Shown here: piece after piece, positions 2,828-60,716 of the stretch
Layout of the letters: each line of letters starts with the position of its first letter
Numbering within the stretch: position 1 is the first letter of the stretch
Assembly (NCBI RefSeq): GCF_009923995.1
Contig: NZ_RFSK01000017.1
Location: 1 to 64,000, forward strand
From: Janthinobacterium sp.
GTDB lineage: Bacteria > Pseudomonadota > Gammaproteobacteria > Burkholderiales > Burkholderiaceae_D
Length of the DNA stretch: 64,000 bases
Direction of reading: 5' to 3'
The notes under the pieces: generated by a model
Database searches by the model: none
What the model saw: only the letters and a program-made list of their open reading frames with translations
Told to the model about the DNA's origin: nothing
Made by a program: the position numbers and the translations under genes

Positions 2828-3430
2828 ATGGCTGACTTCCAGACCCGCGATCCGCTCTCGCCCGCCTTCTGGGACGAGCGATTCGAGAAGCAATTCACGC
2901 CCTGGGACCACGGCGGCGTGCCGTCGCGCCTGCGCAGCTTTGTGGCCGGCAGCCCGGCGCCGCTGCGCTGCCTGATTCCCGGCTGCGGCTCCGCCCATGA
3001 GCTGGCCTTCATGCTGGACCACGGCTGGGATGCCACGGCCATCGATTTTTCGCCGGCCGCCGTGGCCGCCGCACGCGGGCAGCTGGGCGAGCGGGCAGGC
3101 CAGGTGGTGGAAGCGGATTTCTTTGCCTGGCAGCCCGCCGCGCCGCTGGACCTGATCTATGAACGGGCTTTCCTGTGCGCCATGCCGCGCACCATGTGGC
3201 CGCAGGTGGCGGCCCGCTGGGCCCAGTTGCTGGCGCCGGGCGCCATGCTGGCCGGCTACTTTTTCTTTGACGACAATGCCAAGGGGCCGCCGTTTGGCAT
3301 TTCGCGCGAGACACTGCAGGAATTGCTGGCGCCGCATTTCGACTGCCTGGCCGACGAGGCCGTCAGTGATTCCATTGCCGTCTTCGCGGGCAAGGAGCGC
3401 TGGATGAGCTGGCGCCGCAGGGCGGACTGA
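2828..3430 (+). CDS. SAM-dependent methyltransferase, TPMT-like
   Basis: 200 residues. The glycine-rich SAM loop is LIPGCGSAHELAFM (about residues 43-56). The preceding FWDERFEKQFTPWDHGGVPSRL is typical of the thiopurine S-methyltransferase-like class I family, where FWxxR and TPWD-G are conserved. Further motifs are DFSPAAVAAAR (acidic residue binding the ribose) and DLIYERAFLCAMP. A GTG lies directly before this ATG; the ATG is preferred because GAGGA stands about 8 bases upstream. The substrate cannot be read from sequence: family members methylate thiols, selenium or tellurium compounds, or halides. It follows ubiB closely and may be cotranscribed with it. I see no direct link to quinone synthesis. 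Confidence 0.85.
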   Translation: MADFQTRDPLSPAFWDERFEKQFTPWDHGGVPSRLRSFVAGSPAPLRCLIPGCGSAHELAFMLDHGWDATAIDFSPAAVAAARGQLGERAGQVVEADFFAWQPAAPLDLIYERAFLCAMPRTMWPQVAARWAQLLAPGAMLAGYFFFDDNAKGPPFGISRETLQELLAPHFDCLADEAVSDSIAVFAGKERWMSWRRRAD

Positions 3431-3521
3431 GCCTGGCAGGCCCGGCGAGCGGGCAATTTCCGTAAAGGATGATGGAAAAGCTTTATAATTCAGGGTTTTT
3501 GATGATTTTCTCGGAGTAGAG

Positions 3522-3833
3522 ATGCCGATTTACGCTTACCGTTGTGACGAGTGTGGTTTTGCCAAGGATGTCTTGCAAAAGATCTCCGATCCAGTACTGA
3601 CGGTGTGCCTGTCGTGCGGCAAGCCCAGTTTCAAGAAACAATTGACGGCAGCCGGTTTCCAATTGAAGGGCACGGGCTGGTACGCGACCGATTTCCGCGG
3701 CGGCACGGCGCCCACCACGGCCATTCCGACGGGCCCGGCCGATAGCGCCAAGCCTGCAGCCCCGGCCGACAGCGCACCGGCCGCCGCGGCACCGGCGCCC
3801 GCGCCTGCCGCCGCTGCGCCGAAAGCGGACTGA
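3522..3833 (+). CDS. FmdB-family zinc-ribbon protein
   Basis: 103 residues. The first 55 form the FmdB/CxxC_CXXC_SSSS zinc ribbon, with cysteine pairs C8/C11 (RCDECG) and C29/C32 (CLSCGK), followed by KKQLTAAGFQLKGTGWYATDF, which is diagnostic for the family. The remainder is a low-complexity Ala/Pro tail (PAAAAPAPAPAAAAPKAD), probably disordered. FmdB proteins are named after a regulator next to formamidase genes, but most are uncharacterised small ribbon proteins. In betaproteobacteria this gene commonly sits, as here, before a DUF502 gene and aspS. Family assignment is secure and function is unknown. Confidence 0.9.
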   Translation: MPIYAYRCDECGFAKDVLQKISDPVLTVCLSCGKPSFKKQLTAAGFQLKGTGWYATDFRGGTAPTTAIPTGPADSAKPAAPADSAPAAAAPAPAPAAAAPKAD

Positions 3834-3873
3834 AACGCGCTGTGCGCCGACCCATTCCATTATCGAGAAACCG

Positions 3874-4509
3874 ATGCGTAAATACTTTATTACCGGATTA
3901 CTGATTTTAGTACCGCTGGCCATTACCGTCTGGGTACTCAATCTGGTGATCGGCACCCTGGACCAGTCGCTGCTGCTGGTACCGGCACGTTTCCGCCCGA
4001 ACTCGCTGTTCGGCTTTGACATTCCCGGCCTGGGGACGATACTGACGATAGTCATCGTGTTCCTGACGGGCCTGTTGACGAATAACCTCGTCGGCAATTA
4101 TGTGGTGAAACTGTGGGAAAATTTGCTGCAGCGCATACCCATCGTCAATTCCCTGTATTCGAGCGTCAAGCAAGTGTCGGATACCTTGTTTTCCTCGTCG
4201 GGCAATGCTTTCCGCAAGGCTGTGCTGGTGCCGTATCCGCATCAGAACTCCTGGACCATCGCCTTCCTCACCGGCGTGCCGGGCGGCGATGCGGCGAACC
4301 ACCTGGTGGGCGATTACGTCAGCGTGTACGTGCCGACGACGCCCAACCCGACATCAGGCTTTTTCCTGATGATGAAGCGCAGCGATGTGGTCGAACTCGA
4401 CATGAGCGTCGATGCGGCGCTCAAGTACATCGTCTCGATGGGCGTGGTGGCGCCTGCGGAAGTTGTCGCTGTAACGGCCCCGGTCCCGGTACCGGCAGCC
4501 AAAGAATAA
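3874..4509 (+). CDS. DUF502 family membrane protein
   Basis: 211 residues. Two transmembrane helices lie near the N-terminus (about 4-27, YFITGLLILVPLAITVWVLN; and about 52-76, IPGLGTILTIVIVFLTGLL). They are followed by a soluble DUF502 domain with the family motifs IPIVNSLYSSVKQVSDT, TGFLTG-like AFLTGVP and VPTTPNPTSGFFLM. The N-terminal MRKYFITGLLILVPLAIT is characteristic. The family is widespread and uncharacterised; its conserved place before aspS is context only. It starts 41 bp after the FmdB gene and is probably cotranscribed with it. A short GC-rich hairpin (CGTCCC/GGGACG, near 4518-4532) follows without a T-tract. Confidence 0.9.
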   Translation: MRKYFITGLLILVPLAITVWVLNLVIGTLDQSLLLVPARFRPNSLFGFDIPGLGTILTIVIVFLTGLLTNNLVGNYVVKLWENLLQRIPIVNSLYSSVKQVSDTLFSSSGNAFRKAVLVPYPHQNSWTIAFLTGVPGGDAANHLVGDYVSVYVPTTPNPTSGFFLMMKRSDVVELDMSVDAALKYIVSMGVVAPAEVVAVTAPVPVPAAKE

Positions 4510-4571: not shown

Positions 4572-6377
4572 ATGTCTATGCGTACTCAATATTGCGGCCT
4601 CGTCACTGAAGCCATGCTGGGCCAAACCGTCAGCCTGTGCGGCTGGGTACATCGCCGCCGCGACCACGGCAGCCTGATTTTCATCGACTTGCGCGACCGT
4701 GAAGGCCTGGTGCAAATCGTCTGCAACCCGGAACAGGCGGAGATGTTCAAGGTCGCCGAAGCCGTGCGCAACGAATTCTGTCTGCGCGTGACGGGCGTCG
4801 TGACCGCGCGCACGGAAGGCACCATCAACACCAACTTGAATTCGGGCAAGATCGAAGTCGTTTGCGCCGAGATGGAAGTGCTGAACGCCTCCGTGCCCGT
4901 GCCGTTCCAGCTGGACGACGACAACCTGTCGGAAACGACGCGTCTGACGCACCGCGTGCTGGACCTGCGCCGCCCGCAAATGCAGAACAACCTGCGCCTG
5001 CGCTACAAGGTGACGATGGAAGTGCGCAAGTACCTCGACGCGCTGGGCTTCATCGACATCGAAACGCCGATGCTCACCAAGTCCACGCCAGAAGGCGCGC
5101 GCGATTACCTCGTGCCATCGCGTGTGAACGCCGGCAATTTCTTCGCCTTGCCACAATCGCCACAGTTGTTCAAGCAACTGTTGATGGTCGCCAACTTCGA
5201 CCGTTACTACCAGATCACCAAGTGCTTCCGCGACGAAGACTTGCGCGCTGACCGCCAGCCGGAATTCACGCAGATCGACTGCGAAACCTCGTTCCTGACG
5301 GAACAGGAAATCCGCGACCTGTTCGAGGACATGATACGCGTCGTCTTCAAGAACACCCTGAACATCGACCTGCCGAACCCGTTCCCGGTGATGGATTTCG
5401 CCACGGCCATGGGCTTGTACGGTTCCGACAAGCCGGACATGCGCGTCAAGCTGGCTTTCACGGACTTGACCGATGTCATGAAAGACGTGGATTTCAAGGT
5501 CTTCTCGGGCGCGGCCAACATGCCGAACGGCCGCGTCGTCGGCTTGCTGGTACCTGGCGGCGGCGCCATGCCACGCTCGGAAATCGATGCCTACACGCAA
5601 TTTGTCGCCATTTACGGCGCCAAGGGCCTGGCATACATCAAGGTCAATGAAAAAGCCAAGGGCCGCGACGGCCTGCAATCGCCGATCGTGAAGAACCTGC
5701 ACGATGCGGCATTGGCACAGATCGTGGAACTGACCAACGCGCAAGACGGCGACCTGATCTTCTTCGGCGCCGACAAGGCCAAGGTGGTCAACGACGCCAT
5801 CGGCGCGCTGCGCGTGAAGATCGGCCACAGCGATTTCGGCAAGAAATCGGGCCTGTTCGAAGACGTGTGGAAGCCATTGTGGGTGGTCGACTTCCCGATG
5901 TTCGAGCATGACGAGGAAGCGGACCGCTGGACGGCAACCCACCATCCGTTCACGGCGCCGAAAGACGGCCATGAAGACATGCTGGAAAGCAATCCGGGCG
6001 CCTGCATCGCCAAGGCCTACGACATGGTCCTGAACGGCTGGGAACTGGGTGGCGGTTCCATCCGTATCCACCGTGAAGAAGTGCAAAGCAAGGTCTTCCG
6101 TGCACTGAAGATCGACGCGGAAGAAGCGCAGCTGAAGTTCGGCTTCCTGCTCGACGCCCTGCAATACGGCGCGCCGCCGCATGGCGGCCTGGCATTCGGC
6201 CTGGACCGTATCGTGACCATGATGACGGGTTCCGATTCCATCCGCGACGTGATCGCCTTCCCGAAAACCCAGCGCGCCCAGTGCCTGCTGACCCAGGCGC
6301 CGTCGGAAGTGGACGAGAAGCAACTGCGCGAACTGCACATCCGTTTGCGCGGCGCCGAGCCAAAAGTAGCAGGCTAA
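4572..6377 (+). CDS. aspS: Aspartyl-tRNA synthetase
   Basis: 601 residues, the normal size for bacterial AspRS. The N-terminal OB-fold anticodon-binding domain includes [22 protein letters not shown]. Class II motif 2 is [18 protein letters not shown], the bacterial GAD insertion domain lies in the middle, and motif 3 is [14 protein letters not shown] near the C-terminus. It charges tRNA-Asp with aspartate in the cytosol. The ATG at 4578 (MRTQYCG) is an equally possible start, because the family often begins MRT. An excellent terminator follows 57 bp downstream, after an inserted palindromic repeat. Confidence 0.97.
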
Positions 6378-6391
6378 GCATTAACCGAGGC

Positions 6392-6434
6392 TGGGGTCAG
6401 ACGGGGACGCCGAGTCCCGCCGGGTCTGACCCCA
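6392..6434. repeat. Palindromic GGGGTCAGAC-type repeat element
   Basis: Outer arms TGGGGTCAGAC (6392-6402) and GTCTGACCCCA (6424-6434) are perfect inverted repeats. They enclose a second short hairpin, GGGAC (6404-6408) with GTCCC (6414-6418). The element lies between the aspS stop and its terminator. A related outer arm bounds the element at 45095-45160, so this looks like a small dispersed repeat, not part of aspS. Confidence 0.6.
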
Positions 6435-6459
6435 AAAGGCGCTGACGAGGCGCCTTTTT
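6435..6459 (+). terminator. Rho-independent terminator of aspS
   Basis: Stem AAAGGCGC (6435-6442) pairs perfectly with GCGCCTTT (6450-6457) around a 7-base loop, followed by T residues. Confidence 0.8.
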
Positions 6460-6469
6460 CATTGTTGAT

Positions 6470-6934
6470 ATGACCCATAAAATTCCCGTTTCCGTGCTGG
6501 TCGTCATTCATACGGCCGAACTCGACGTCCTGCTGATCGAGCGCGCGGGCCAGCCCGGCTTCTGGCAATCGGTGACCGGTTCCGTCGACGCCGTCGACGA
6601 GCCGCTGCTGCAGACGGCCGCGCGCGAGCTGTGCGAGGAGACCGGCATCGTCGCCGATGGCGAACGCATCGTGCTGCGCGACTGGCACCTGGCGAACGAG
6701 TACGAGATCTACCCCATCTGGCGCCACCGCTACGCGCCGGGCGTGACGCGCAACACGGAGCACGTCTTCAGCGTGCAGGTGCCGCGCGACGTCGTCATCA
6801 CCCTGAGTCCGCGCGAGCACCTGCAGTACGCCTGGCTGCCGTACCTGGCGGCGGCCGACCGGTGTTTTTCCTCTTCCAATGCGGAAGCCATTTTGCTGCT
6901 GCCGGCCATGACGGGCCTGGCACGGCCTGCCTGA
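6470..6934 (+). CDS. nudB: Dihydroneopterin triphosphate diphosphatase (Nudix hydrolase)
   Basis: 154 residues. The Nudix box is at about residues 38-61: GSVDAVDE, seven residues, then RELCEETGI, with six residues rather than five between the leading Gly and the first Glu. The start (HKIPVSVLVVIHT), the WQSVTGS motif and WRHRYAPGVTRNTEHVF match the NudB group, which removes pyrophosphate from dihydroneopterin triphosphate in folate synthesis. In many beta- and gammaproteobacteria nudB follows aspS, as here, and this supports the assignment. It is followed after 19 bp by two small membrane-protein genes on the same strand. Confidence 0.9.
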   Translation: MTHKIPVSVLVVIHTAELDVLLIERAGQPGFWQSVTGSVDAVDEPLLQTAARELCEETGIVADGERIVLRDWHLANEYEIYPIWRHRYAPGVTRNTEHVFSVQVPRDVVITLSPREHLQYAWLPYLAAADRCFSSSNAEAILLLPAMTGLARPA

Positions 6935-6953
6935 CCCACCGAGAAAGTCTTTC

Positions 6954-7247
6954 ATGTTGAACTGGATTCATTTGACGACGCAGCAGAAACTGCTGGGTAC
7001 CGTGGGCATCGTTTTCTGCCTGTGTTTTATTTTCCTGCTGTTTAGCTCCACCCTGCCTGGCCGCACGCCGCCCATCGGCATGCCCCTGATGGCCATCGGC
7101 TGGCTGCTGCACCCGGGCGCATTTGCCCCGGGCAAGCGCACGGTGGCCTGGCGCGGCGCCCCATTGCTGGTGAAGATCGTCTGGGCGGCCGGCATCACGG
7201 CGCTGATCGTCAGCGTGACGGCGGGCGTGGGCCGCATGCTGGCCTGA
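6954..7247 (+). CDS. Small two-helix membrane protein, tandem copy 1
   Basis: 97 residues, function unknown. Two hydrophobic helices are clear (about 14-31, GTVGIVFCLCFIFLLFSS, and about 74-95, IVWAAGITALIVSVTAGVG). They flank a short central loop with a conserved LLHPGAFAPGKR segment. The next gene encodes a protein with the same opening (MLNW, then QQKLLG), the same LLHP-FA-G loop and the same LVK at the start of the second helix. The two are therefore tandem paralogues. The ATG is preceded by GAGAAAG. It is probably cotranscribed with nudB, but the tight spacing is the only hint about role. Confidence 0.7.
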   Translation: MLNWIHLTTQQKLLGTVGIVFCLCFIFLLFSSTLPGRTPPIGMPLMAIGWLLHPGAFAPGKRTVAWRGAPLLVKIVWAAGITALIVSVTAGVGRMLA

Positions 7248-7317
7248 GGCTCTATAAACTATTGTCATATGGTATTATTGCTTTAATGGTAATTTTACTT
7301 CATGACGAAAGGTTTGC

Positions 7318-53616: not shown

Positions 53617-54719
53617 ATGATGCCCGCTTCCTTTTTCTCGCCACCGCGCCGCCGAACCGTTGTCTTTGTCGCGGTCATCGGGGTGCTGCATTACGTGGCG
53701 CTGGAATGGCTGACTTCGCATGCGGGCATGGTGCCGCTGCGGCCGGATAATACGCAGGTCGTCAGCATGGCGCTGCTTGCCGAGGCGCCCAAGCCGCTGC
53801 CGGTGGTCCCGCCGCCACCGCCGCCGCCCGTGCCCGAGCCCCGGCTGCCGCCACCGCCGCCGCCGACGGCATTGCCGTCGAGCGACACGCCCGTGCTGAC
53901 GGCGCCGGCCAGCGATGTGCCGGCAGGCCCGGCCACGCCGGCACCGCCCGCGCGACCGCCGTCACGGCGCCGGCACCCGCCGAAGTGGCGCCGCCCGCGC
54001 CGCCACCGCCACCGCCGCCCGTCGTGGAGCAGGCGCGGCATTACAAGACGAACGCGCCCGCGTCGGCCCGCTTCGACCTGCACGTGGACCGGCGCGATGC
54101 GGACGGCACCAAGTGGCAGGGCGTGGCCGCCATGGCGTGGGACAACAAGGGCGATAGCTACCAGCTGAAACTGGAAGTGGGCTTGAGCATGCTGATCACG
54201 CGCATCAACCTGCTGGTGCTGACCAGCGAAGGCGTGATCGATGCGAGCGGCATCGTGCCCGTCACGGCCACGGAAAAGCGCAAGGGCCGGGCGCAAACGG
54301 CCACGCATTTCAACCGCGACGGCAAGGTCATCACCTTTTCCGCCACGACGGCCACCGTGCCATGGCAGGAAGGGGCGCAGGACAAGGCCAGCGTGCCGTT
54401 CCAGCTGGCCGCCATCGGCCGCGCGGACGTCAACCAGCTGGCCGGCAATATCGATATCCTCGTCGGCGAGGAAAGGGAAGCGACCGTGTTCCGCTTCCAG
54501 CTCGTGGGCGAGGAAGAACTGGACACGCAGATGGGCCGGCTGGTGACGTGGCATCTGCGCCGGCCGCCCAAGCCGGGCACGTATTCGTCGCAGCTCGATA
54601 TCTGGCTGGCGCCGTCCATGCAGTGGTATCCGGTACAAATACGCAATACCGAGGCGAGCGGGGCTTTGACCACGCAAACCGTCACCAAGATCTCCGTCAA
54701 TGACGCTACAGGAAAATAA
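53617..54719 (+). pseudogene. DUF3108 protein gene interrupted by a frameshift
   Basis: Two overlapping frames together encode one protein. From 53617 (frame 1): an N-terminal transmembrane segment (RTVVFVAVIGVLHYVALEWL), then a Pro-rich linker; after about 53950 this frame becomes Arg-rich nonsense. In frame 3 the Pro/Ala linker continues (VTAPAPAEVAPPAPPPPPPP) and leads into a complete DUF3108 domain, ending at 54719 (FDLHVDRRDADGTKWQGVAAMAW to LDIWLAPSMQWYPVQIRN). One base appears lost in the GC-only stretch around 53943-53957. This is a sequencing error, a real mutation or, less likely, programmed slippage. The intact paralogue is the next gene. Translation from GTG 53985 could still give a soluble form. 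Confidence 0.75.
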
Positions 54720-55484
54720 ATGATGACTCTGACTAATTTGAAACACTTGCTGGCCGCCGGCGTACTGGCTGCCACCCTGACTCCCGCCATGGCCGACGCG
54801 CCCGTGGAGCACCCCGCCATCAAGCGCCCGTACAAGCTCGTGCCGTCGGCTGACCTCGTCTATTCCATCAAGGCCAGGCAGCGCGGCATCGGCCTGTCCG
54901 GCGAATCCGTCAGCAACTGGCGCGTGGGCGACGGCAAGTATTCGCTGCTGGCCGAAACGAAGGCGGCCCTGTTCGGCAAGATCCTCGAGCAGCGCAGCGA
55001 AGGCACGGTCGACGATTACGGCCTGGCCCCGGCGCAATTCGTGGAAAAGCGCTTCCGCAAGGATGCCGTCACGACCACCTTCAAGCGCGACAGCAAGACC
55101 ATCGTGTTTGGCGAAGGCGATGAAACGTATCCGCTGAAGGGCGGCGAGCAGGACCGTAACAGTGCCGTCTGGCAACTGGCCAGCGTGGCGCGCGCCGCGC
55201 CCGAGAAATTCGTCCCCGGCTCGGAATGGGCCTTTTTTGTCGCCGGCGCGCATGATGCCGAGCCGTGGGTCTTCAAGGTCGTCAAGGAAGAGAGCGTGAC
55301 GACGGGCATGGGCGACGTGGCCGCCATCCACCTGGTCAAGGCGCCGCCGCCGGACAAGAAGGGCCAGCAAGTGGACCTGTGGCTGGCGCCGTCGCTGGAA
55401 TGGTATCCCGTGAAAGTGACGTTCGCCGACGCGGACGGCGGCGATTATGTGGAGCAAACCTTGCAGAAGATCGTCAAGAAGTAA
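54720..55484 (+). CDS. DUF3108 domain exported protein
   Basis: 254 residues; start at 54720 directly follows the previous stop (or 54723). A signal peptide (LKHLLAAGVLAATLTPAMA) is followed by a single DUF3108 domain: VYSIKARQRGIGLSGESVSNWRVGDGKYSLLAETKA, VDDYGLAPAQFVEKRFR, KTIVFGEGDETYPLKGGEQDRNSAVWQLASVARAAP, and the closing QVDLWLAPSLEWYPVKVTFADADGGDYVEQTLQKI. The same W-LAPS-WYPV motif ends the preceding gene's domain, so they are tandem paralogues. The family is a periplasmic beta-barrel-like fold of unknown function in Gram-negative bacteria. Confidence 0.85.
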   Translation: MMTLTNLKHLLAAGVLAATLTPAMADAPVEHPAIKRPYKLVPSADLVYSIKARQRGIGLSGESVSNWRVGDGKYSLLAETKAALFGKILEQRSEGTVDDYGLAPAQFVEKRFRKDAVTTTFKRDSKTIVFGEGDETYPLKGGEQDRNSAVWQLASVARAAPEKFVPGSEWAFFVAGAHDAEPWVFKVVKEESVTTGMGDVAAIHLVKAPPPDKKGQQVDLWLAPSLEWYPVKVTFADADGGDYVEQTLQKIVKK

Positions 55485-55763: not shown

Positions 55764-57146
55764 ATGATTGACATAATGGCAAGTGCAGCCGTGGCTGCGG
55801 ATGCAAATCAAACAGAGCAAGAGCATCACGATTCCTTGCAGGCGCATTTCCAGCCGAATATTTCGGCCGACGAGATCGAGCAGGTGTTTCACTTGAAGCG
55901 GGCGCAGCCTTTGCTGCAAGTGTTTACGGCCCTGTTCCACGGCGGCTTCGATGGCGTGCTGGTGCGCCTGCTGGTGCTGCGCGAACTGGCGTCCGATGCA
56001 GCGACCTCTGCCTACACGCGCGCCGATATCAACACCAAGCTGGCGTATCTGTTGCCGGAAAGCCTGGAAACGGTCTTGCTGCGCCTGCGCTCGAACCAGC
56101 TGCTGGCCTGGGATACGCAGCAGGGCGTGTACCGCGTCACGCCCATGGCACGCAACGTGCTGTCCGCCATCGACAGCCTGCTGGGCCTGGGCCAGACGGA
56201 AGACGAGGCGGAAATGGGCTTTTTGCTGTCGCAGGTGGCGGGGGCGCAAGCCGTCGGCGGCGTGTCGGTCGAGCAATTGCAACATCTGCTGGGGCGCCTG
56301 GTGGACTTGACGGAAGAGTTTTCCGACGCCATCGCCTCCGGTTCCGAATTCCGTCTGCGCACGGCGCAGGCGAAGTGGAATATGGCGTGCGACTGGGTGG
56401 AAAAGGGTTCCGAAATCCTCGTGGCGATCACGTCCGATGAAAACGCGGACAGCGCCACGCACAAGGCGGCGCAGGCCATCGGCCGGGCGCAGAGCAAATT
56501 GTTGAACATGCAAGGCATGTTTTCGCGGGCCCTGAACCAGATCGAGCGCCAGCGGGTCCACCTGGGCCAGTCCGGCCTGTCGACGACGGACATCAAGCGC
56601 TGGCTCCTGCAGCATGACGACCTGGCCAGCCTGGCCGAGGGCGCCATCGACCAGCCCGTCGTCCCCCTGTTCTCCACGCCGGCCGAGATGATCGACGTGG
56701 CCGAGACGGAACTGCTGTCCGAACGGGCGGCGGGCGTCACCAACACGGGCCTGCCCAGCGGCGAGGACGCGCCCACCACCATCAGCGACGGACCCGCCAT
56801 GCAGCTCGAACTCGATGACCTCCTGGCCCGCCTGTCGAATTTCGCCAGCCTGGGCAATTTCCCCAGCATCGGCGAAGAGGGGCCGAAGAGCGTACCGGTG
56901 CAGGATTCGCTGCTGCCGGCCAGCTTTGCCGTGGCCTCCTACCGCGCGTCCATGCTGCCGCTGCTGGGCGACGTGTCCGAAGCGAGCCTGCAAGGCTCGA
57001 CGGCCGAACTGGCCCGTCTGCCGATTACCTTTACACCGACCGACGAGATGGTCCAGTTGACCGACCCCCACGTGGCGGCCATGTCGATCGCCTCGCTTTC
57101 ACTGAATGTTTCACTTGATTTAGATAGCGGCACCGCCGATGAATGA
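55764..57146 (+). CDS. Kleisin-like subunit of an SMC complex (MukF/MksF/JetA-like)
   Basis: 460 residues (ATG at 55776 is an alternative). The N-terminal 130 residues look like winged-helix DNA/SMC-contact regions (FQPNISADEIEQVFHLKRAQPLLQVFTALFHGGFDGVLVRLLVLRELA; LESLETVLLRLRSNQLLAWDTQQGVYRVTPMARNVLSAIDSLLG). A long helical middle (EDEAEMGFLLSQVAGAQAV, LVDLTEEFSDAIASGSEFRLR) and an acidic, Ser/Thr-rich C-terminus follow. The pattern, the size and the operon with a smaller winged-helix protein and an SMC ATPase support a kleisin role. Its 3' end overlaps the next gene by 8 bp. It is not close enough to any named member for me to give a symbol. Confidence 0.75.
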   Translation: MIDIMASAAVAADANQTEQEHHDSLQAHFQPNISADEIEQVFHLKRAQPLLQVFTALFHGGFDGVLVRLLVLRELASDAATSAYTRADINTKLAYLLPESLETVLLRLRSNQLLAWDTQQGVYRVTPMARNVLSAIDSLLGLGQTEDEAEMGFLLSQVAGAQAVGGVSVEQLQHLLGRLVDLTEEFSDAIASGSEFRLRTAQAKWNMACDWVEKGSEILVAITSDENADSATHKAAQAIGRAQSKLLNMQGMFSRALNQIERQRVHLGQSGLSTTDIKRWLLQHDDLASLAEGAIDQPVVPLFSTPAEMIDVAETELLSERAAGVTNTGLPSGEDAPTTISDGPAMQLELDDLLARLSNFASLGNFPSIGEEGPKSVPVQDSLLPASFAVASYRASMLPLLGDVSEASLQGSTAELARLPITFTPTDEMVQLTDPHVAAMSIASLSLNVSLDLDSGTADE

Positions 57147-57876
57147 CGATTCCCAAATCCTGATTGCGCGCCTGCTCACGCATCAAACCCTGCGCCGCGA
57201 CGACAAGCTCGTCAAGCGCGTGCTGTCCGACGAGCTGTTCCGCGCCGAGATCGATGCGCGCCTGCTGGCCTGCGGCCTGAAACTGCTCGACAACGTGTAC
57301 GCCGACCATGTCACCCTGGCCCTGACGCGCACCATCGAGCCGAAGATCTTCGGCGCGCGCGATGTGTGGCAAAACAATAACTTCGGCCTGGCCCGCGATG
57401 GCGTGGCCCTGCTGGTGGTGCTGTGGGCGCAGATCATCCTGCCCAAGCGGGAACGCCAGGAAACCCACCAGCACGCGGACGATGACCAGAACGACATGTT
57501 CGGCACGGAAAAACCGCTGCCGCGCGCGGAAGACGCGTCCATGGGCATTTCCTACAAGGCGCTGCTGTCCGATTTCGGCGACAAGCTGGGCAAGAAGACG
57601 CGCATGGACATGAACCTGGGCACCCTGGCCAAGCTGGGCTTCATCGAGCGGCGCGGCGACGTGCTGCTGGAAGGCCCGCTGCTGGACCTGATGATGGATA
57701 CGGACGTGCTCAAGGAGCGTATCATCAACGGCGCCCTGGCCGACGTCTTCAAGCGCGCGCCGGCGCGCCTGGTCGTCGTCGGCGGCGACCCGCTGCTCGA
57801 CGCGGAAGTGGAAGCCGACCTGTCCGCCGACATCCTTGATGCGGGCGACGCGCCTGCGTCCGACCTTCCTCACTGA
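57139..57876 (+). CDS. MukE/MksE/JetB-like winged-helix subunit (DUF4194-like)
   Basis: 245 residues. The start (ILIARLLTHQTLRRDDKLVKRVLSDELFRAEIDARLLACGLKLLDNVYADHVTLAL) has the DUF4194-type pattern of a first helix, R-D-D, a docked helix and the GL-L-D strand. The middle (GVALLVVLWAQIILPKRERQE) is helical, and a second winged-helix part follows (MDMNLGTLAKLGFIERRGDVLLEGPLLDLMMDTDVLKERI). Such proteins bind the kleisin and the SMC heads. It overlaps the upstream gene by 8 bp and is 8 bp before the SMC gene. The C-terminus is short and acidic. Confidence in the class comes mainly from context. Confidence 0.75.
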   Translation: MNDDSQILIARLLTHQTLRRDDKLVKRVLSDELFRAEIDARLLACGLKLLDNVYADHVTLALTRTIEPKIFGARDVWQNNNFGLARDGVALLVVLWAQIILPKRERQETHQHADDDQNDMFGTEKPLPRAEDASMGISYKALLSDFGDKLGKKTRMDMNLGTLAKLGFIERRGDVLLEGPLLDLMMDTDVLKERIINGALADVFKRAPARLVVVGGDPLLDAEVEADLSADILDAGDAPASDLPH

Positions 57877-57884
57877 AAGCGCCC

Positions 57885-60716
57885 ATGTTTCATATCAAAT
57901 CACTTGAACTGGTGCACTGGGATTACTGGCAGCGCATCAAGAACATCCCGCTCGACGCGAAGATCATCACCATCGCGGGGCAGAACGGCTCGGGCAAGAC
58001 CACCTTGCTCGACGCCTTGCGCACCCTGTTCGGCCTCGACTGCTCGATGGGGCGCACGTATAAGCACTATGCGCGCCACTCGGGCCAGCAGACGGCCTGG
58101 CTGCGCGCCGTGGTCGACAACAAGAACGTGGGCAAGCAGCTGTCGAACCGCCCGTTCCGCAGTTCCGGCTTCTTCAGCGACGATGAAGTGACCCTGTTTT
58201 GCCAGATCCAGAAGAACGGCGGCGACTGGAAGCGCCAGTATCTGATGCGCCCAGGCAATGTGCAGATCGAGGACATCACGGACGCCAACGACTGGCTGGG
58301 CGTGGAAAACTACCGCAAGCGCCTGGCCAATGCGGGCCTGTCGCCCGCCATGTCGAAAGTGCTGGCGCTGGAGCAGGGCGAGACGGACAAACTGTGCGAA
58401 TACGCGCCGCGCCAATTGCTCGACCTCGTCTTCCAGGTATTCGGCGACAAGGAAGTGCTGGACGCCTACGACGAAGCCAAGCGCCACCAGCGCGACACGG
58501 AAGTGGAGCTGAAGCGCTTCGAGACGGAACTGGAAGCGTCGAAGACCAATCTGGAAGGCTTGCGCCTGCGCGTGGCCAACTATCACCAGTGGGAAGGGCT
58601 GCATAAAGAGCGCCGCAACCTGCTGGAAGAAGTGCTGCCCAGCCTGCAATACCACGAGGCGCGCGAAAAGGCGGCCATCGCCAGCCGGCAATTGCGCGAT
58701 GCGCGCAAGCCGATGGCGCAGGCGGACCAGCAACTGACGGACAAGCGCAATGCGCTGGCGGCGCAGGCCAAGTCCCTGTCCGACGCGCAGATGAACGAGA
58801 CCTTGCTGGAGCAGGAATCGATCGGCCTGCAGAGCCGTTTGTCCCTGATCAATGCCAAGCTGAAACCGCTGGACAGCCTGCTGGAGCAGAAGGACCGCCT
58901 GCACAAGCTGGCGGCGGACTCCGGCAGCGACATCGCCGAAGTGGCTGCCCAGCTGGAACAGAAGGAAGCGGAACTGCTGCGCCAGCGCCAGCAGCGCGAC
59001 GCCCTGTCGGCGCGCATCGCGGCCGAGCAGGCAACCATTGCCGCGCTGCAAGGCAAGACGGCCATGCCGGAGCCGGAGAATGTGCGCGGCATGCGCCGCG
59101 CCCTGCGCGACGCGGGGATTTCCCACGCCATGCTGTCCGATATCGTCGAAGTGACGGACAGCCGCTGGCAAGGCGCCGTCGAAGGCGTGCTGGGCGGCTA
59201 TGCTTCGGTGGTGTTGCTGGACAAGGCCAAGGATGCGGCCGCCGCCTACCGTTTGGCGGAAAAGGAACGCTATCGCCACTTCATCGTGCCCGACCTCGTC
59301 ACGGCACCTAGCGCGAAAGATGAAAGCCTGCTGGCCGTGGTGAAATTTTCCGCGCCCGTGCCCAGCTGGCTGATCGAGCAGCTGTCGCGCATTGCCCGCG
59401 TCGATTCCGTCGAAGCGGGTTTCAAGCTGGGCAACCACGAAGAGTGGATCACGCCCGAGGCGTATCACCGCGAGCGCCGCGGCGGCCGCTCCCTGTTCGT
59501 GGAAGCGTCGCGCTACCGCTTCGGCCAGGCTGGCCGCAGCGGCCGCCTGGAAGCGCTGCTGCGCTCCCTGCCGGGCCTGGAAGGCCAGGAAGACACGCTG
59601 ACCCTGGTCATTTCGAAACTGGCGGGGGAAGTGGGCGCCCTGAAAGCGCGCATCGCCGGCGTCGACGCGGCCAAGGAACTCAGTGCGCGCCAGGAAGAAT
59701 TCGCCGAAGCGCTGCGCAATTCGAAACCGCTCAAGGAAGAGCGCCTGGAAGTGGGCGGCCGCCTGGGCGAGCTGCAGAACCTGACGAAGAACGCCACCGT
59801 GGCGCGCACTCGCGCCGATACCGTGTGGCAAAACGCGCGCCTGGCCCTGTCCGAGGCGGAAGCGGGCGCGCGCCTGGGCTACAAGAAACAGATTGAACAG
59901 CGCGCCGAGCATGCGCGCGCCCTGCTGGCCCTGCGCCACGCGTGGCGCCATTTGCCGAAGAGCTGGCGCCGGCCGGGCCGACGCGCGGCGCTTGTCGCCG
60001 AGCACCAGAACGCGCACCAGGTCGACCTGCGCGTGGCCAGCCTGCAAAACAGCCTGGCGCGCGACGACTGGGAACTGGACGCCACCGTCATCGACCAACA
60101 CCACCGCCTGTCGGACCAGCTGCACGGCCGCCAGTCGGAAACGGACGAGCGCCGCTACCAGAACAACCGCGCCATCGAAGCGACGGGCAATGCCCGCGGC
60201 GCCTACATGGAGCGCTTGCGCTACACCATCAAGACCTACAGCAAGAACATCAAGGAACTGGGCGAGCTGGCCGGCATCGAAGTGCATGCCGACCCCGTGC
60301 GCCTGGAAAACGACGACGTGCAGCTGTCGCAGGCGGGCCTGCACGTGCGCTTCAAGTTCGACGGCAAGGGCGTCATCGGCATGAACGATGGCGAAGCGTC
60401 GGGCGGCCAGCAGGTGATGAAGTCGCTGGTGCTGCTGATCGGCCTGCTGAAATCGGAAGACGGTTCCGGCGGCTTCGTCTTCATCGACGAACCGTTTGCC
60501 CACCTCGACATCCGCAACATCCAGCTGGTGGGAGAATTCCTGAAAAACACGGAAGCGCAGTACCTGATGACGACGCCGTTGACGCACAACACGGATGTCT
60601 ACGATCCATCGGAACTGACTTTGATCACGAGCAAGAAAAAGAAGGATACGCAATGGGCGCAACCGATCTTCGTGCTGCAGCGGCGCATCGAACCCGTGCC
60701 GGGCAAGGCGGCGTGA
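57885..60716 (+). CDS. SMC-like ATPase of a MukB/MksB/JetC-type complex
   Basis: 943 residues. Walker A is GQNGSGKT (32-39); the ABC signature is SGGQQ (839-843, in GEASGGQQVMKSLVLLIGLLK); Walker B is FVFIDEPFAHLD with D868-E869. Between them are two coiled-coil arms and a hinge-like centre (about 400-560) with SDIVEVTDSRWQGAVEGVLGGYASVVLLDKAKDAAAAYRLAE, a pattern resembling the hinge of Wadjet/MukB-like proteins. The arms are short compared with MukB (about 1,480 residues). Residues about 686-701 (AWRHLPKSWRRPGRR) look out of frame and may reflect two compensating indels. The next gene starts on the last base. Confidence 0.88.
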   Translation: MFHIKSLELVHWDYWQRIKNIPLDAKIITIAGQNGSGKTTLLDALRTLFGLDCSMGRTYKHYARHSGQQTAWLRAVVDNKNVGKQLSNRPFRSSGFFSDDEVTLFCQIQKNGGDWKRQYLMRPGNVQIEDITDANDWLGVENYRKRLANAGLSPAMSKVLALEQGETDKLCEYAPRQLLDLVFQVFGDKEVLDAYDEAKRHQRDTEVELKRFETELEASKTNLEGLRLRVANYHQWEGLHKERRNLLEEVLPSLQYHEAREKAAIASRQLRDARKPMAQADQQLTDKRNALAAQAKSLSDAQMNETLLEQESIGLQSRLSLINAKLKPLDSLLEQKDRLHKLAADSGSDIAEVAAQLEQKEAELLRQRQQRDALSARIAAEQATIAALQGKTAMPEPENVRGMRRALRDAGISHAMLSDIVEVTDSRWQGAVEGVLGGYASVVLLDKAKDAAAAYRLAEKERYRHFIVPDLVTAPSAKDESLLAVVKFSAPVPSWLIEQLSRIARVDSVEAGFKLGNHEEWITPEAYHRERRGGRSLFVEASRYRFGQAGRSGRLEALLRSLPGLEGQEDTLTLVISKLAGEVGALKARIAGVDAAKELSARQEEFAEALRNSKPLKEERLEVGGRLGELQNLTKNATVARTRADTVWQNARLALSEAEAGARLGYKKQIEQRAEHARALLALRHAWRHLPKSWRRPGRRAALVAEHQNAHQVDLRVASLQNSLARDDWELDATVIDQHHRLSDQLHGRQSETDERRYQNNRAIEATGNARGAYMERLRYTIKTYSKNIKELGELAGIEVHADPVRLENDDVQLSQAGLHVRFKFDGKGVIGMNDGEASGGQQVMKSLVLLIGLLKSEDGSGGFVFIDEPFAHLDIRNIQLVGEFLKNTEAQYLMTTPLTHNTDVYDPSELTLITSKKKKDTQWAQPIFVLQRRIEPVPGKAA

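Follow-up and report, generated by a model that had tools for sequence, protein, structure and literature searches.

What a Wadjet-like complex built on a structural maintenance of chromosomes (SMC) ATPase does in a genome where no Wadjet nuclease was found is the question raised by a locus of Janthinobacterium sp. (assembly GCF_009923995.1). The window, that is the whole stretch analysed (64,000 nucleotides of contig NZ_RFSK01000017.1), carries three consecutive genes on the plus strand at 55764-60716. They encode a kleisin-like subunit of 460 aa in the MukF/JetA position (55764..57146), a KITE-like subunit of 245 aa in the MukE/JetB position (57139..57876, hereafter the kite) and an SMC ATPase of 943 aa in the JetC/MksB/MukB position (57885..60716), the last being matched by SMC_N (PF02463, E 1.3e-13). 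An earlier note, made from the letters alone, had described them as a three-subunit complex without the JetD nuclease; its positions, sizes and spacings were reproduced exactly in an open reading frame check, the kleisin and kite genes overlapping by 8 bp and the kite and SMC genes lying 8 bp apart. In MukBEF and Wadjet, a kleisin-bridged SMC dimer and a KITE dimer hold DNA in a clamp and use ATP for loop extrusion; in Wadjet, the JetD subunit cuts once a small circle leaves nothing more to extrude. Our preferred answer, to which we give a probability of about 0.5, is that the locus encodes a Wadjet-like machine which has probably lost its nuclease and may now be working as an auxiliary condensin.

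The three genes form a unit. Their order on one strand was kept in 134 of 135 fetched homologous loci, comprising 80 close Oxalobacteraceae relatives (the best 80 of 390 relatives in a scan of named genomes) and 55 diverse loci, and hence a chance arrangement is unlikely. The single exception (L191, from the 680-contig genome G486) has a kite gene at 3777-4430 on the minus strand of a 4.6 kb contig, followed by other frames, lptE-like by eye, with no SMC gene in the remaining 3.8 kb; it is either a true exception with a broken operon or a misassembly. The ATPase motifs of the window SMC, located by homologue alignment on the plus strand, are intact: Walker A is GQNGSGKT (residues 32-39, 57978..58001), the ABC signature is GEASGGQQVM with the core SGGQ (residues 836-845, 60390..60419), and Walker B with the D-loop is FVFIDEPFAHLD with the core FVFIDE (residues 864-875, 60474..60509). 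All of these were found to be invariant in 12 aligned homologues, some of them just 41-43% identical, except for the second residue of Walker A, which is Q or P. The ratio of nonsynonymous to synonymous substitution rates (dN/dS) ranged from 0.018 to 0.19 for the three genes in seven pairs, two of which were saturated (dS >1), and the genes are under purifying selection.

The window genome (6.18 Mb) was found to contain no JetD by any of the models searched over its whole length: JetD_C gave no match at E<=0.001, and neither DUF2398 nor a profile of the family's own JetD-like gene (D) matched. The absence, which the earlier note had read from the adjoining genes, was thereby extended to the genome. 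In the wider family the picture is mixed, as a fourth gene of about 400 codons stands behind the SMC gene in 10 of the 55 diverse loci. A whole-genome search with the D profile was positive in 12 of 62 genomes carrying a kite, each time directly behind the trio, and found nothing in the other 50, including that of the window. Within one genus (g317), four sampled genomes have D and one is without it. 'Nuclease-less' is therefore one state of this family and not all of it: the earlier note's nuclease-less branch stood for the window complex, which is three-subunit, KITE-type, unnamed by curated models and without JetD, and fell for the branch as a whole. The D profile was also positive in four further genomes: G403, where SMC and D genes lie on a contig starting inside the operon (L208, outside the 62 carriers), G639 (L207, likewise outside the 62), G502, with two ordinary Wadjet JetD copies, and G600, with one borderline fragment. 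In G639 an orphan JetD-like gene (6075-7295, minus strand) immediately follows obgE, in the position that the trio takes in relatives, and the trio is absent from the 18 kb fetched around it.

Several comparisons bear on the identity of D. The PADLOC JetD models matched all five copies scanned (L156, L162 and L172 from the 12 D-bearing carriers, with L207 and L208), the best E of each copy lying between 1.9e-19 and 2.4e-4, and the PADLOC name for the best matches is JetD1. Among Pfam models, DUF2399 (1.6e-10) and, just under its cut-off, JetD_C matched the L172 copy; no Pfam JetD model matched those of L156 and L162. When nine copies were aligned, three features proved conserved, namely an E-N pair, the leading Asp of a DxDP-type motif and EQE at the end, and we take these to be Toprim-like. 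The two groups of D are homologous to each other (hhalign 100%), and D was nearest to the PF18982-type Wadjet in profile comparison (89%, with small reference sets). In pairwise identity, D diverges in step with the kleisin, the kite and the SMC, and hence D travels with the trio.

The distribution of the trio separates it from Wadjet. Of 100 relatives, 52 gave SMC matches. The genus contributed 38 of its 39 other genomes to this total; G021 had none, and G013, G026 and G034 gave pieces in incomplete assemblies. JetD_C was patchy in the same genus (12 of 39 other genomes), and so, on the point of core against patchy occurrence raised by the earlier note, the trio is near-universal. Profile sampling covered the order, taken here as Burkholderiales, the class and the phylum. 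The kite profile matched 62 of 399 genomes of the order, in 32 of 159 genera, and the window's own genome alone in the samples of the class (274) and the phylum (140). Loci were fetched and read for 50 of these 62 carriers, 49 of them showing the whole trio and L191 being the exception; the other 12 were identified from the kite match alone, and two of these, G385 and G653, show an adjacent SMC gene. By family, kite matches were present in 12/12 genomes of f5, 5/5 of f32, 3/3 of f13, 9/10 of f21 and 10/13 of f1, the window's own family, totals which may be slightly low as five genomes without a ScpB match do not enter the family listing. In the families where carriage is common (f1, f5, f13, f21, f27 and f32), 45 of 49 carriers are without D and four have it, whereas D is present in 7 of 12 carriers from the families where carriage is rare (f14, f20, f24, f34, f42, f217, f220 and f221); f216, with one D-bearing genome, was left out. 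The contrast, based on small numbers, gave a Fisher p of 4e-4, in a test that ignores relatedness and with a grouping chosen after seeing the data. Such a pattern is expected if D-bearing members are exchangeable defence and D-less members are household equipment. Moreover, the sites are conserved. Of the 55 diverse loci, 43 are not from Oxalobacteraceae, and in 28 of these the trio is preceded by a same-strand obgE homologue, at a distance of no more than 1.5 kb in 24 cases. Ahead of obgE, 24 loci have an L27 gene and 27 a divergent polyprenyl synthase gene, one representative of each neighbour having been identified by Pfam.

The naming of the two smaller subunits depends on fold models and on weak family matches. 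No Pfam, NCBIfam or PADLOC model matched the window kleisin or kite at E<=1. The DUF4194-like label given to the kite in the earlier note was not borne out for the window protein at that threshold, although DUF4194 matches 12 of 39 family kites at E<=10 (best 4.8e-4); the PADLOC JetB model is weakly matched by up to five of the 39. Pfam MksE (PF21980) matched neither the window kite nor any of the 39, and DUF3375 and PF18982 matched neither the window kleisin nor appeared among the 25 of 31 families shown for 39 kleisins. These sets (alignments A6 and A7) comprise the window sequences with 38 of 46 kite references and 38 of 45 kleisin references. The fold models were built from shallow alignments of 35 kleisins and 39 kites (34 and 38, respectively, having been kept from the 80 loci after removal of near-identical ones). 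The kleisin model has a mean predicted local distance difference test score (pLDDT) of 55, with residues 62-260 mostly at 70-82 apart from a dip at about 140-170, and its PDB ranks 1-11 are chains from MukBEF, MukE-MukF, MukF and Wadjet entries (TM-scores 0.11-0.21), rank 1 alone being below E 0.001. Its residues ~62-125 (55947..56138, plus strand) probably form a winged-helix part, judging from the secondary structure of the model. For the kite model (mean pLDDT 49, about 80 over residues 1-50), chains from JetABC entries, with lengths fitting JetB, take ranks 1, 2, 4 and 5, MAGE/NSE1 proteins take ranks 3 and 6, and no PDB match falls below E 0.001. Profile searches of PDB sequences gave nothing significant (best E 0.038 for kleisin and 0.13 for kite). 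Comparison of the kleisin and kite profiles with JetA, JetB, MukF, MukE and the type II partners also gave no match, but this null is no evidence of unrelatedness because the controls (JetA_I against JetA_III, and JetB_I against JetB_III) failed too, the method thus being insensitive here. As the fold matches and the weak DUF4194 and JetB family matches point one way, the trio is most likely a MukFEB/JetABC-type complex.

The SMC family profile, made without L192 (masked) and L042 (in-frame stop), reached 99.3% with the PF18982-type JetC over nearly the full length (a reference profile of two sequences), 98.7% in part with the DUF3375-type JetC and 99.0% with canonical Smc, best around the hinge, and was weak with MukB (79.6% over 79 columns of the C-terminal head). 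In these comparisons the labels JetA/B/C/D_II denote the second DUF3375 subgroup and 'III' the PF18982-JetA locus L150 with its relative L151, and they may differ from the published type numbers. The window protein itself is matched partially by PADLOC JetC models (best 9.9e-19), reaches 73 of the 567 bits needed on the canonical Smc model TIGR02168 and scores 15.2 bits on PF04310 (MukB N-terminal) against a cut-off of 23. Hence, of the profiles for MukBEF, MksBEF and JetABCD with which the earlier note had proposed to name the complex, none names the kleisin or the kite, and the SMC has partial JetC matches from PADLOC and a sub-threshold PF04310 match; the curated models used do not name the complex. 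The hinge region lies at about residues 404-570 (59094..59594, plus strand; limits estimated from PF06470 at 414-491, a conserved block and the Smc-hinge profile match), between two short coiled-coil arms of ~190 residues. It had been called Wadjet-like, but PF06470 is under its cut-off here (E 9.7e-4) and the overlap around the hinge is with Smc, so that by sequence it appears to resemble the canonical Smc hinge and not specifically that of Wadjet. In the ATPase-head tree, several changes per column separate the trio from JetC/MukB and likewise from Smc. The tree which the earlier note had suggested thus places the SMC outside the JetC groups and leaves its position unsure, as the branch of JetC and MukB, 3.6 changes per column long, attaches within the trio with 92-93% bootstrap and a long-branch warning; since long branches meet there, it is used for distance alone.

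On the proposed mechanism, the kleisin would bridge a short-armed SMC dimer and a pair of KITE subunits would stabilise it, and this assembly would trap DNA and pull loops with ATP as in MukBEF and Wadjet. In JetD-bearing members, a motor that has run round a small circle would trigger cutting, and without JetD the machine could only fold DNA. We infer a four-gene JetABCD-like ancestor, from which D would have been lost in the window lineage, the same motor then serving the chromosome beside Smc-ScpAB. Chromosome folding or segregation is suggested as the most economical job because of the near-universal presence and the conserved sites, silencing of foreign DNA being its main rival. ScpB was found in 374 of the 399 genomes of the order and, like canonical Smc, is encoded in the window genome at a place other than the trio. 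In two genomes of one genus (G063 and G653, rated 100% complete), the trio is present and no match to ScpB, canonical Smc (judged at E<=1e-12) or MukB was found. A general replacement of Smc-ScpAB by the trio was considered and dropped, as it fits these two genomes alone and other genomes are without all of these condensins. A broader history, namely domestication, is rather unlikely as a whole: the family would then hold nuclease-armed, mostly rare four-gene members along with nuclease-free, near-universal condensins settled at conserved sites (beside obgE or other chromosomal genes), the nuclease-free complex would be the sole SMC condensin left in the genus of G063 and G653, and the route speculated for MukBEF would have been repeated independently.

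A number of results weigh against an auxiliary condensin derived by nuclease loss. No remnant of D was detected in 126 D-less sequences (tblastn, E 0.01), so that a loss in progress was not observed. The tree of the trio proteins leaves the root and the direction of change in D unfixed, and the head tree does not recover the trio as one clade, which is whole in 2% of bootstrap trees. The kleisin and kite fold models are of low confidence and their TM-scores are low as well. The carriage pattern is not clean: the four D-bearing carriers from common-carriage families all belong to f27, five D-less carriers come from rare-carriage families, and in f20, f24, f42 and f221 even the trio without D is uncommon (5 carriers among 41 sampled genomes). 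Further, 60 of the 62 kite carriers still have ScpB. Six genomes of the order rated 99-100% complete (G066, G387, G521, G574, G587 and G662) gave no match to ScpB, canonical Smc (again at E<=1e-12), MukB or the kite, and because such genomes exist, G063 and G653 are no proof of replacement.

The change may also have run the other way, an ancestral three-gene condensin having recruited a JetD-like nuclease in two lineages, which we regard as possible but doubtful. On the trio-protein tree, which has 57 rows (L191 and L042 left out), uses a simple model and carries a long-branch warning, the D label has to change three times or more, and with its root unfixed such a count can accommodate gain; the D-less loci without remnants and the D-less majority of carriers (50 of 62) would likewise follow from it. 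Recruitment sits less easily with the homology of the two D groups, with the constant place of D behind the SMC gene in all 12 carriers and with the orphan adjoining obgE in G639. The nearest Wadjet kind can be read both ways: D and SMC are each nearest the PF18982 type in the profile comparison, with its small reference sets, which would fit a shared four-gene origin, but PADLOC calls the best D copies JetD1, unlike the kind nearest the SMC, and this leaves the shared-origin argument weak. At the other extreme, an ordinary Wadjet whose jetD was recently lost or is hidden by an assembly break shares the jetABC gene order with the window and is contradicted by the results, so that we give it hardly any weight. 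Trios without D are found repeatedly, throughout whole families and in genomes assembled as one contig, which also contradicts a jetD lying beyond a misassembled junction, the case that the earlier note had named against itself; the window kleisin and kite match no JetA or JetB model, and the SMC heads are far from JetC.

A defence role without JetD, in which plasmids or phages are restricted by compaction, by silencing or by a nuclease recruited from elsewhere, is unlikely. It draws on the kinship with Wadjet seen in the folds and in the fourth gene, and on Corynebacterium glutamicum, whose MksBEFG acts on plasmids and not on chromosome folding in the available parts of two reports (PMC7083940, PMC10123090). 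The near-universal trio at conserved sites, set beside the patchy Wadjet JetD of the same genus, speaks for another role; no relatives of the trio were found in viral contigs, no kite match in phage records (searched with the kite only), and two Variovorax plasmids gave partial SMC matches only. It is somewhat easier to suppose, with real reservations, that the trio is one of the MksBEF families already counted in 2011 and that the nuclease polymorphism alone is new. Several distantly related MksBEF families exist according to the part of PMC7485682 available to us, and the trio may overlap with those already reported. The models point elsewhere, as the window kite has no PF21980 match and the window kleisin no DUF3375 match, and the same holds for all 39 family kites with MksE and for DUF3375 in the 25 of 31 families shown for the kleisins.

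Set beside the known systems, the trio shares with Wadjet the order of kleisin, KITE and SMC, the SMC profile closest to the PF18982-type JetC, a KITE model nearest to JetB entries and, in a minority of its family, a JetD-like gene. It differs in having no JetD in the window lineage, in an SMC of 943 aa against ~1,130 aa for JetC in the compared loci, in heads far from JetC, in a kleisin and KITE unrecognised by Jet models and in being near-universal in a genus where Wadjet is patchy; as the nuclease was tested for and not found, the trio is not filed as Wadjet. Like MksBEF, it is a KITE-type complex with the gene order F-E-B that coexists with Smc-ScpAB, whereas the family has no Pfam MksE match and occurs, as far as sampled, in the window's order alone. 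The nuclease-free order kleisin-KITE-SMC is common to MksBEF, MukBEF and the window. The best PDB matches of the kleisin model are MukBEF/MukF entries, and E. coli MukBEF also has no nuclease; on the other hand, MukB has 1,486 aa, the profile match to it covers 79 head columns only, and nearly all carriers keep ScpB. Smc-ScpAB shares the SMC head motifs and the canonical-like hinge, and the window SMC is far below the Smc model cut-off, with ScpB and canonical Smc encoded elsewhere. In the part available to us, a review speculates on a descent of MukBEF and MksBEF from defence systems and describes their relationships as unresolved (PMC10586767). In a literature search that did not extend to the 2011 paper defining MksBEF, no description was found of a nuclease-less branch with JetD-bearing relatives. 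The family is of use in that nuclease-bearing and nuclease-free complexes can be aligned in related bacteria, even within one genus (g317), which allows the motor to be compared with and without its nuclease and may show which features altered, should a weapon have turned into housekeeping machinery. In Janthinobacterium, Massilia, Duganella and their relatives, chromosome biology thereby gains a second SMC complex.

The nearest named relatives of the window SMC are from Janthinobacterium, a genus assigned by NCBI to Oxalobacteraceae, Burkholderiales. The window trio is preceded at 53985-55484 by a pair of neighbouring DUF3108 genes (PF11306); such a pair was found upstream in 74 of the 80 Oxalobacteraceae loci and is probably a merely conserved neighbour. 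Downstream, the DUF4424 and nucleotidyltransferase-like genes named by the earlier note were both confirmed by Pfam (PF14415, E 3e-69, and NTP_transf_6, PF06042, E 5.8e-54). They recur behind the trio in 15 and 7 of the 80 Oxalobacteraceae loci, respectively, and are not part of the system.

Some minor observations were made in the homologous loci. Unrelated small frames are inserted inside the operon in several lineages with the trio order intact, being GNAT-like by eye in L031, L033, L175, L176 and L182, HAD-like by eye in L171, and other frames in L186 and L187. The SMC gene of L042 (G055) has an in-frame TAG in the first coiled-coil arm, the kleisin and kite genes being open. A 2,572-aa SMC frame in L192 runs through a masked stretch and was rejected as an artefact. 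The PADLOC JukB model weakly matches 11 of the 39 kleisins of alignment A7 (best 5.4e-5), which may be chance. The partial SMC matches on the two Variovorax plasmids, of 816 and 429 kb, lie at ~513364-514755 of NZ_LR594690.1 and ~180802-182193 of NZ_LR594663.1 and cover 49% of the query at 45% identity. In Janthinobacterium relatives, the ordinary Wadjet locus is bordered by copies of a frame of 155 aa (~3216-3680 and 15536-16000 in L133 and L135; 15776-16240 in L134), which we take to be a spurious frame inside 23S rRNA, so that this Wadjet locus may sit between rRNA operons.
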